Assembly: GCA_947631215.1 (NCBI GenBank)
Contig: CANRKN010000073.1
Span: 1-10,390, forward strand
Origin: an uncultured Oscillospiraceae bacterium
Lineage (GTDB): Bacteria; Bacillota_A; Clostridia; Oscillospirales; Oscillospiraceae
Direction: 5' to 3'
Length of the DNA: 10,390 nucleotides
Notes under the pieces: generated by a model
Database searches by the model: none
Told to the model about the DNA's origin: nothing
What the model saw: only the letters and a program-made list of their open reading frames with translations
Translations under genes and position numbers: made by a program
Part shown: positions 1,140 to 8,772 of the stretch, one piece after another
Position numbering within the stretch: position 1 is the stretch's first letter
Layout of the letters: each line of letters starts with the position of its first letter

Positions 1140-1170
1140 AACCCCGGGACGCGTTCTGCGTCCCGGGGTT
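1140..1170. terminator. Strong hairpin, probable bidirectional terminator
   Basis: A perfect 13-bp inverted repeat (1140-1152 with 1158-1170) with a 5-base loop lies just after the SPFH stop. Read on the minus strand, the stem runs into a TTTTGTC tail, so it fits termination of the small-peptide genes coming from the right. On the plus strand the T-rich stretch (1184-1189) is displaced from the stem, so the signal is weaker there. It sits between two convergent transcription units. Confidence 0.75.
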
Positions 1171-1191: not shown

Positions 1192-1454
1192 TTACACTTT
1201 CGGCAATTCCTTCTTGACGCATTTCGCGCCGCCTTCGCTCATGGCCTTGGGAATGGCTACCTTTTTGTTGTTCCCCCCATAGGGACAGGTCCCGGGGCCT
1301 TCGAAGGCGCAGCCAATACAATTGACAGCTATAAACAACCGCTGCTCCTCCGGAAGATCACTTATGTCGATCGTGCCGCCGGTGACCTTTTCCAGGGCGT
1401 CCTCCTGTTCAGAGGTTAGCCCCCCCCCCGCATGGTTTTCTTCTCTTCGTTCAT
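1192..1454 (-). pseudogene. Small Cys-containing peptide, double-Gly-type leader, out of frame at a G10 run (copy 1)
   Basis: The ATG at 1454 follows an AAGGAGGA ribosome site (1461-1468, 6 bases spacing). As written, the G10 run (1420-1429) gives MNEEKKTMRGGG and then a stop. With 8 or 11 G the frame continues: the leader reads LTSEQEDALEKVTGG, followed by a tail of about 60 residues holding a CIGC pair, a later TCPY and one further Cys, ending KKELPKV. Leu at -7, Val at -4 and Gly-Gly at -2/-1 match double-glycine leaders removed by C39-peptidase transporters. This suggests a secreted RiPP or bacteriocin-like precursor, but no modification enzyme or exporter lies in the window. The downstream frame has no ATG, GTG or TTG of its own before the run. 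It may be phase-variable, rescued by slippage, a true pseudogene, or a sequencing error. Homology to copy 2 supports that the frame is real. Confidence 0.62.
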
Positions 1455-1469
1455 GGTTTTTCCTCCTTA
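1375..1469 (-). repeat. Direct repeat, copy 1 (SD plus leader region)
   Basis: This stretch matches 1648-1740 with only scattered differences. On the minus strand it runs from the ribosome site through the start codon, the G run and the leader, and similarity stops right after the two Gly codons (1375-1380). The repeat therefore covers exactly the leader-coding part and not the tail. Confidence 0.85.
1420..1429 (-). repeat. G10 homopolymer run in copy 1 (C10 on + strand)
   Basis: Ten consecutive C on the plus strand, lying at codons 9-12 of the copy 1 peptide gene. The run length sets the reading frame of everything after it: 8 or 11 keeps the gene open, 10 closes it. Runs of this length are prone to slipped-strand change. 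Confidence 0.9.
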
Positions 1470-1485
1470 TGTTATTTGTTGTATC

Positions 1486-1726
1486 TTAACTGTGTTCAGG
1501 ACAGGTTTCATAGCCCCTCAAAGTATTGTACATCGTTATTGGGGTATAGGGGCAGTTCTTCCCACATTTCGTGCAGTTACCGCAATTTTTCGAGGTAAAC
1601 TTTGAGACAAAGCTGGCCATTGCATCAAGCTCGCTGACGCTGAGCGCCCCGCCGGCGACCTTTTTCAGGGCGTCCTCCTGTTCAGGGGTTAGCCCCCCCC
1701 CGCATGGTTTTCTTGTCTTCGTTCAT
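1486..1726 (-). pseudogene. Small Cys-rich peptide, double-Gly-type leader, out of frame at a G9 run (copy 2)
   Basis: First gene of the minus-strand pair. The ATG at 1726 is preceded by GGGAGGA (1734-1740, 7 bases spacing). With the G9 run as written (1693-1701) translation stops after 14 residues (MNEDKKTMRGGANP). With 8 or 11 G it reads on through LTPEQEDALKKVAGG and ALSVSELDAMASF to a Cys cluster NCGNCTKCGKNCPY and a final ETCPEHS, giving about 79-80 residues. The N-terminal third is nearly identical to copy 1. The tails differ but share NCxxC, a later CPY and one more Cys. The likely class is a precursor peptide with a removable leader; a small metal-binding protein is the alternative. 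It lies 31 bases upstream of copy 1, so one mRNA probably carries both. Confidence 0.62.
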
Positions 1727-1740
1727 GGTTTTTTCCTCCC
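1648..1740 (-). repeat. Direct repeat, copy 2 (SD plus leader region)
   Basis: Partner of 1375-1469. The Gly-Gly codons lie at 1648-1653, after which the two genes diverge in nucleotide sequence while keeping a similar Cys layout. Confidence 0.85.
1693..1701 (-). repeat. G9 homopolymer run in copy 2 (C9 on + strand)
   Basis: Nine consecutive C on the plus strand, at the same codon position as the run in copy 1. It is out of frame by a different amount (9 against 10). The two copies therefore do not share one inherited frameshift of identical length. Confidence 0.9.
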
Positions 1741-1763
1741 TAATAATATAATTTCATACAACC

Positions 1764-1792
1764 ATATTAGCGGAACGCCGGGCGGCCGTCAA
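1764..1792 (-). promoter_or_regulatory. Sigma-A type promoter for the small-peptide pair
   Basis: On the minus strand TTGACG (1787-1792) and TAATAT (1764-1769) are separated by exactly 17 bases. The predicted RNA start, near 1757, leaves about 30 bases to the first peptide start codon. The match is strong enough to suggest the pair is an independently transcribed unit and not dead DNA. Confidence 0.78.
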
Positions 1793-8094: not shown

Positions 8095-8123
8095 TTGACA
8101 AATGGGATGGGAGTGGGTAAAAT
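8095..8123 (+). promoter_or_regulatory. Promoter of the ANTAR-guaA operon
   Basis: TTGACA (8095-8100), 17-base spacer, TAAAAT (8118-8123). It has the same two hexamers as the divergent glnN promoter. Predicted RNA start is near 8130, about 58 bases before the GTG start. The 84 bases between the two -35 boxes contain a perfect palindrome GGCATATGCC (8067-8076), a possible operator but unproven. Confidence 0.82.
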
Positions 8124-8170
8124 CAGCATAAATAAAGGTATATCCCCGTCTTACCGCCATCCATTCTATG

Positions 8171-8178
8171 AAAGGAGG
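8171..8178 (+). promoter_or_regulatory. Ribosome site that fixes the ANTAR-regulator start
   Basis: AAAGGAGG lies 9 bases before the GTG at 8188. A longer reading from TTG at 8095 would start inside the -35 box and is excluded. Confidence 0.85.
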
Positions 8179-8187
8179 ACCGCGCCG

Positions 8188-8772
8188 GTGCAGTCCCGCC
8201 CCTACGCTTCGCTTCTTCTGATCACCGCCTCCCAGGGCACCGCCGCCCATTTCGCGGCCTTCCTGCCGGAGGACCGCTTCGCCCCGGAGCTGAACGTATG
8301 CTCCCCCCTGGAGGCGAACTATGTCCTGGGCGAGACAGCCTACGACGTTGTGGTCATAGACGGCACCGTCCCCGCTGAGTCCGGTACGGACCTGGCCCGC
8401 TTCGCGGCGGAGAGCGGCGTGTCCGGGGTGCTGCTGCTGGCGGAGGAGGACGACTTCGAGGCCGTGTCGGCCCTGGCGGCGGAGCACGGCTTTATGGCCC
8501 TCAAGAGCCCCGTGGACCCCTCCCTTCTGAAACAGAGCCTGGGCATGATGGCGACCGTGAGCCAGCGGATGCACGCCCTGGCCTCCCGGGCCGAGCGCCT
8601 GCAGGCCAAGATGGACGAGCTGCGCCTGGTGGACCGGGCCAAGCTCATCCTCATCCAGCGGTTCAAGATGACCGAGAAACAGGCCCACCGCTTTATCGAG
8701 AAAAACGCCATGGACCGGTGCGTCACCCGCCGGGCCGTGGCCGAAAAGATCATCCGTACATACGACATATGA
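8188..8772 (+). CDS. ANTAR-domain response regulator, probable transcription antiterminator
   Basis: A 194-residue protein starting at GTG. Residues about 7-115 fold as a receiver-like domain: beta-1 SLLLITAS, a DVVVIDG strand with Asp58 at the phospho-acceptor position, and LKSP with Lys106. The usual acidic pair after beta-1 is absent (ASQG) and the Thr/Ser of beta-4 looks replaced by Ala85, so it is probably a degenerate receiver. A helical linker (about 120-142) leads to an ANTAR domain (about 138-194: [20 protein letters not shown], then [12 protein letters not shown] and AVAEKII). ANTAR domains bind dual-hairpin RNA and prevent termination, as in AmiR, NasT/NasR and EutV. The protein lies divergent to glnN, whose leader has a terminator, and is co-transcribed with guaA 11 bases downstream. 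It is inferred to tie glnN-asnA expression to nitrogen status; no cognate kinase is in the window. Confidence 0.85.

Follow-up and report, generated by a model that had tools for sequence, protein, structure and literature searches.

Campylobacter, Helicobacter and Neisseria are textbook examples of phase variation through poly-G runs. Runs of at least seven G or C in a reading frame or promoter have been taken as contingency tracts in Campylobacter, where, according to the available text of PMC6321876, 53% of tracts are G9 and 26% are G10; the accessible part of PMC8355987 ascribes this profile to an insertion bias at G8 and a deletion bias at G11 and longer. As far as these two accounts describe them, the Campylobacter loci resemble those reported below in having G runs both within open reading frames and between genes, with 9 and then 10 as modal lengths, in switching either a frame or a promoter, and in including many glycan genes. 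A second body of work concerns the NHLP and Nif11 precursor peptides and the exporters TIGR03796 and TIGR03797. In the available portion of PMC2887384, these precursors show the GG motif, variable Cys-rich cores and large sets of paralogues that are also found here; their genes likewise lie away from the exporter, and the same exporter pair occurs in one relative of the organism described here.

Here we analyse a 10,390-nucleotide stretch of DNA from an uncultured Oscillospiraceae bacterium (the window), which carries two small tandem genes with a long G run in each. We consider it probable that the two are orphan GG-leader peptide genes subject to phase variation, each forming an SSR contingency locus that is rarely ON, with export of the product by an NHLM-type transporter.

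Two tandem peptide genes and their reading frames

Copies A (1486..1726) and B (1192..1454) are paralogous and follow each other on the minus strand between 1192 and 1726. A preliminary description of the window had proposed two paralogous small genes with good ribosome sites, and this is borne out: the ATGs at 1726 (copy A) and 1454 (copy B) are each preceded by a strong ribosome site on the minus strand, AGGGAGG at 1735..1741 and AAGGAGG at 1462..1468, respectively, and both genes have a Lys-rich start. The poly-G tract falls at codons 9-12 in both copies, as G9 in copy A (1693..1701, minus strand) and G10 in copy B (1420..1429, minus strand), and appears on the plus strand as 9 C and 10 C. 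A run scan found these two alone among G/C runs of at least seven in the whole window, and both exceed the length used to define contingency tracts.

Both runs had been described as out of frame, correctly so: the start frame meets a stop after 14 (copy A) or 12 codons (copy B). From the run onwards, copy A has an open frame of 71 codons and copy B one of 79, and neither of these open frames has an upstream start codon of its own; the length of the run decides whether the start is joined to it. The lengths given earlier for an open frame, 8 or 11 G, are right for copy A and agree with the frame relation in copy B. Translation of the open frames from the natural DNA gives a leader ending in V-A-G-G (copy A) or V-T-G-G (copy B), followed by a Cys-rich core. 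The double-glycine codons, whose positions were counted by hand and whose two Gly columns are invariant in a 53-sequence alignment, lie on the minus strand at 1648..1653 (KKVAGG, copy A) and 1375..1380 (EKVTGG, copy B) and mark the predicted cleavage sites.

The claim of one strong promoter stands in part. A predicted sigma-70 promoter, TTGACG-17-TAATAT, lies upstream of both copies (1764..1792, minus strand). Its match of 9/12 does not in itself make it strong, as one such site was found against 0.6 expected in shuffled sequences; the stretch is, however, conserved upstream of a single-copy orthologue in two related genomes, G001 and G021. At the same locus these genomes are missing copy A and retain the copy B orthologue, the neighbouring genes and the promoter stretch. 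The window aligns to both with about 94% identity in two outer blocks and 89-91% in the middle block.

In the gap between copy B and the convergent SPFH gene, a GC-rich hairpin (1141..1167, no strand assigned) was noted by eye as a possible two-way terminator; it is not among the terminator-scan results for the window. Scanning the window against Rfam (gathering threshold) and for tRNAs returned zero matches. Further along, at 8095-8772, a gene for an ANTAR-domain regulator is flanked by glutamine synthetase-like and GMP synthase-like genes, both recognized by eye.

ON and OFF members of the peptide family

The comparison set consists of four uncultured Oscillospiraceae metagenome-assembled genomes of one genus: G001, G012, G021 and G033. 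Of the genomes compared, G001 is the nearest to the window, with 43% of the window's 31-letter words in common. Eight of 35 genomes of the genus match the G001 gene at the DNA level, and the four relatives hold 43 of the 49 places among the matches listed.

Across 53 aligned members, L, V, G, G and three Cys are invariant, a further C-P is nearly so, and the core is variable outside the Cys columns; as in NHLP and Nif11 precursors, a double glycine precedes a variable core rich in modifiable residues. Some members have a leader that is free of the glycine stretch, namely P0004-P0006, known as proteins only, and three tandem L024 genes. No Pfam or NCBIfam model matched the window peptides above cut-off, and the leader models TIGR03793 and TIGR03798 gave no match for P0001, P0002 and P0003. 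The run-bearing relative L127 reached 25.0 bits with PF07862 (Nif11; cut-off 23.8) and 31.9 bits with TIGR03798 (cut-off 32.3). The same genomes encode further run-bearing peptides whose cores, by eye, are different. A ferredoxin-like reading of copy A was discarded, the matches (E 0.0007 to 0.2) all being far below cut-offs and reflecting Cys spacing only. The predicted structure of the family had a mean pLDDT of 56. Conservation was too low for a genome scan with the family alignment; a DNA pattern scan of species genomes gave 23 stretches, 18 from Oscillospiraceae and five from unrelated taxa.

In total, 42 small genes had a run shortly downstream of a ribosome site and start; three of these candidates lacked V-x-GG and were dropped. 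The remaining 39 run-bearing genes, the window's included, comprise 15 ON and 24 OFF (L055:1988 is read as OFF). Both states are present in each of the four relatives, and both window genes are OFF. In 16 of the 39 genes, the window's two among them, the frame is closed at both 9 and 10 G, and all 16 are OFF, which fits rare-ON switching and also partial decay.

OFF genes occupy both wrong frames (14 of 23 in one and nine in the other), so that no single programmed frameshift explains them. Programmed ribosomal frameshifting on the run, by which the ribosome itself would yield the long product, draws on the facts that G runs can be slippery and that the closed frames end shortly after the run, but the OFF genes would need both kinds of shift. 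At one locus, G012 (L068:1130, G9) is out of frame by one and G033 (L069, G10) by two, despite identical 10-nucleotide flanks, and no Rfam family reached threshold in the window. We therefore regard frameshifting as extremely improbable.

Four OFF genes have full-length public protein twins, identical after the run in 60/60, 57/57, 76/76 and 47/49 residues; only the Cys-rich subfamily served as query in the searches for twins, and the twins could stem from a different assembly of the same samples. Neither window gene has an identical full-length twin, the best matches being 69/75 residues for copy B and 62/67 for copy A; P0044 is a full-length relative of copy A's kind. More than one run length occurs in 15 of 22 groups of runs with shared flanks, paralogues included. 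Among 15 cross-genome pairs with identical 10-nucleotide flanks, eight are equal in length and seven differ, the latter representing five loci (three of the pairs share one G033 run). The comparison of run lengths in relatives proposed in the preliminary description thus gives lengths that differ between identical flanks at five loci, and its view of the genes as contingency loci is strengthened by the ON and OFF relatives, the full-length twins of OFF genes and the length differences. Some of these differences could be assembly error, since the relatives are metagenome bins, and the variation in tract length is between homologues in the relatives.

Substitution patterns bear on whether the two genes are still maintained, and several pairs of intact downstream frames have clearly fewer nonsynonymous than synonymous changes, though others do not. 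Copy A and its ON relatives (G012, G033) agree at 62 of 67 residues, with 7/42 synonymous (0.17) and 5/159 nonsynonymous (0.032) changes, a ratio of 0.19. An orthologous pair that is OFF on both sides, L015/L201, has a dN/dS of 0.22. Copy B differs from its ON relatives by 5 to 8 changes, with ratios of 0.43 and 0.85, too few changes to show selection, and in several other pairs the ratio approaches or exceeds 1, reaching 4.0 in an OFF-ON pair with 8 changes. A decaying pair, formerly functional, broken by slippage of the run and now drifting, would be consistent with the OFF state of both window copies and with the copy B ratios, which leave room for relaxed constraint. Decay is nevertheless very unlikely in view of the intact frames of 71 and 79 codons, the low ratio of copy A and the recurrence of the same pattern, with ON members, in four genomes. 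Set against decay, a fixed frameshift or a chance pair, phase variation is the reading that the comparative evidence favours.

Long G runs in the relatives

Together, the four relatives have 129 runs of exactly G7, 14 of exactly G8 and 137 of at least G9. The corresponding counts are 25, 4 and 31 in G001; 27, 3 and 33 in G012; 30, 1 and 28 in G021; and 47, 6 and 45 in G033. A trough at G8 followed by a peak means that the runs are more than chance, and a chance origin was rejected for this reason. Among 35 genomes, the ratio of long runs to G7 is highest in these four, followed by G003 (18 to 31) and G014 (14 to 25).

The trough also bears on homopolymer error in sequencing or assembly, under which the true lengths would be in frame. 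Homopolymers are error-prone, but several bins share the same run class, the trough at G8 and both states, and we give error a very slim chance.

Lengths were read for 134 of the 137 runs: 86 G9, 40 G10, seven G11 and one G12. Where a genome had several runs of the same length with identical 40-nucleotide flanks, they were treated as one, and the ON copy L024:3724 was merged with its twin in this way. The profile, with modes at 9 and 10, is close to that published for Campylobacter. Since lengths 9 and 10 make up 126 of the 134 runs in the relatives and open neither window copy, each copy should be mostly OFF.

The runs have a characteristic surrounding sequence. Clustering by flanks left 81 of the 153 runs collected from the window and six genomes; in these, the run is followed by T in 94% and then by A in 69%, and preceded by C or T in 95%. 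At the same loci, runs of G5-G7 (n = 287) are followed by T in 26% and by TA in 5%. Positions -11 to -7 are richer in A (48% vs 18%). Stop codons account for part of the TA: stops in two frames within 15 nucleotides of the run occur at 22 of 81 runs, as against 2.0% of random places and 2.1% after G5-G7. The pattern Y-G9-N(0-3)-TA is present in 117 of 400 family genomes and exceeds its reversed control by 27 to 4 in G001 and 17 to 4 in G021, overlapping matches at one place being counted.

The flank pattern is common across kinds of genes and is seen in the four relatives and also in G014 and G020. Long G runs followed by T occur elsewhere as well, in 6/6 cases in G050, which belongs to another genus, 13/13 in G027 and 8/9 in G025; the picture is mixed in G061, and in a Campylobacteraceae bin T and A follow once each.

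Runs of this class are found in other genes. Ten run-bearing proteins were scanned and comprise two glycosyltransferases, a DegT aminotransferase, a UDP-galactopyranose mutase, a cytidylyltransferase, two epimerases, an FkbM methyltransferase, a DUF4422 protein and an AraC regulator. In the gene for this AraC-type regulator (L009, L137), the run is a G10 and in frame in G001 but, between identical flanks, a G9 and out of frame in G021. In a conserved permease-like gene, recognized by eye (L034, L125, L166:5981, L213), the run is in frame in all four species, even at length 10.

Other runs lie in promoters. In 12 of 134 cases the run occupies the spacer of a sigma-70 match of 9/12 or better, against 0.41 expected with shuffled flanks; about six of the 12 are independent, five representing one repeated promoter family and others pairing up, and the shuffles ignore such kinship. 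The claim at a loose threshold (20/134 vs 11.4 shuffled) was abandoned for this strict test. A set of similar promoters (L016, L028, L129, L131, L197) has the run between a TTG-type -35 and TACAAT, and its spacer ranges over 16-18 with run length.

The spacer runs are informative about transcriptional slippage, in which the DNA length is fixed and RNA polymerase slips on the G run to place a few mRNAs in frame. Slippage would let an OFF length persist, and two orthologous pairs, L067/L223 and L162/L212, are indeed OFF at G9 in two species, with proteins identical at 49/49 and 53/54 residues. On the other hand, orthologues do differ in DNA length, public proteins represent open versions of OFF genes, and mRNA slippage has no effect in a promoter spacer. 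Slippage in transcription thus seems unlikely. The pair is real rather than due to chance, and is most likely a phase-variable one within a lineage that has a genome-wide poly-G system.

Thirty runs were observed near the 3´ end of long open reading frames, with the next start found for 26 (loci L128, L136, L145, L146, L153, L158, L159, L179, L181, L184, L208 and L217, in G033, G021, G012 and G014). At 16 of the 30, exactly one frame stops between -5 and +1 nucleotides from the start of the next gene, and the other frames mostly stop far earlier; the current length reaches the junction in six of the 16 and misses it in ten. Six of these 16 upstream genes were scanned and gave glycosyltransferases, epimerases, DegT and DUF4422. 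The arrangement looks like phase-variable translational coupling, although overlapping starts are common in operons anyway.

Proposed switching and export, and comparison with known systems

Under phase variation, slipped-strand replication would alter the length of the G run within the leader codons. Certain lengths only would join the start to the leader-core frame, the others leading to termination within a few codons, and the assembled lengths of both window copies are OFF. For each copy, the ON state would then be confined to a rare, heritable and reversible minority of cells, with most cells OFF. The preliminary description had envisaged an arsenal of four states. This is formally right, but the states would not be freely sampled, since lengths 9 and 10 open neither copy; they would be very unequal, because the length bias, if valid here, makes both genes rare-ON.

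In the ON state, the precursor would probably be cleaved behind the double glycine, with export by a C39 ABC transporter of the NHLM type whose gene lies elsewhere in the genome. Cleavage and export are predicted in this way from the motif and from the exporter of the relatives. A C39 exporter was found in all four of these, and in each of them GG-leader Cys-rich peptides adjoin the exporter operon (L234-L237, L064). No run of at least nine G is listed beside the C39 exporter in the four genomes. The G001 exporter pair scores above the NHLM ABC1 and ABC2 cut-offs (948 vs 853.3 and 751 vs 709.4 bits); NHLM scoring covered G001, and the proteins of G012, G021 and G033 are equal in length to the G001 pair with near-identical starts. 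In four further comparison genomes (G014, G018, G008 and G024), a C39 match was obtained in G008 alone; in G024, which is 78% complete, the family is matched three times and C39 not at all.

Peptide systems of this type usually serve competition or signalling among gut bacteria, and such a role is proposed here. For the window's own strain we infer switching, its bias towards rare ON states and this role from the comparative data.

We regard as evenly balanced a wider proposal for this Gram-positive gut lineage. It would possess genome-wide poly-G contingency, with a random set of GG-leader peptides in each cell alongside switched glycan genes, regulators and promoters, and with 3´-end runs as a separate class of switch that places a stop on the next start; the flank pattern would hint at a dedicated means of producing or maintaining the runs.

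Both contingency loci and GG-leader peptides have been described before; a phase-variable GG-leader precursor was not found in the literature, and the union of the two in an Oscillospiraceae commensal was not found either, the search covering open-licence papers. With some 30 to 45 runs per genome, an Oscillospiraceae commensal would extend poly-G phase variation to a major gut phylum. Randomly switched peptide sets would also help explain the poor visibility of such peptides in single genomes, where they are hard to see because OFF copies offer no complete reading frame to call.

Among described switches, the 3´-end runs of the relatives, as distinct from the window genes, are like the C-terminal switching of Helicobacter canadensis, in which, according to the available text of PMC2823697, the tail of the protein is changed. 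They also resemble the suspected coupling of cj0045 and cj0044 mentioned in the accessible part of PMC8355987, in that the next gene may be affected. Compared with the NHLP and Nif11 systems as presented in the available portion of PMC2887384, the leaders in the window are short, are missed by the models for those families and contain a poly-G run. They differ further in that no modifying enzyme (cyclodehydratase, LanM or radical SAM) was seen among the five neighbouring window genes scanned. Unlike the Campylobacter loci, as far as PMC6321876 and PMC8355987 describe them, the runs reported here belong to a Firmicute lineage, include many switched GG-leader peptides and share a common flank pattern.
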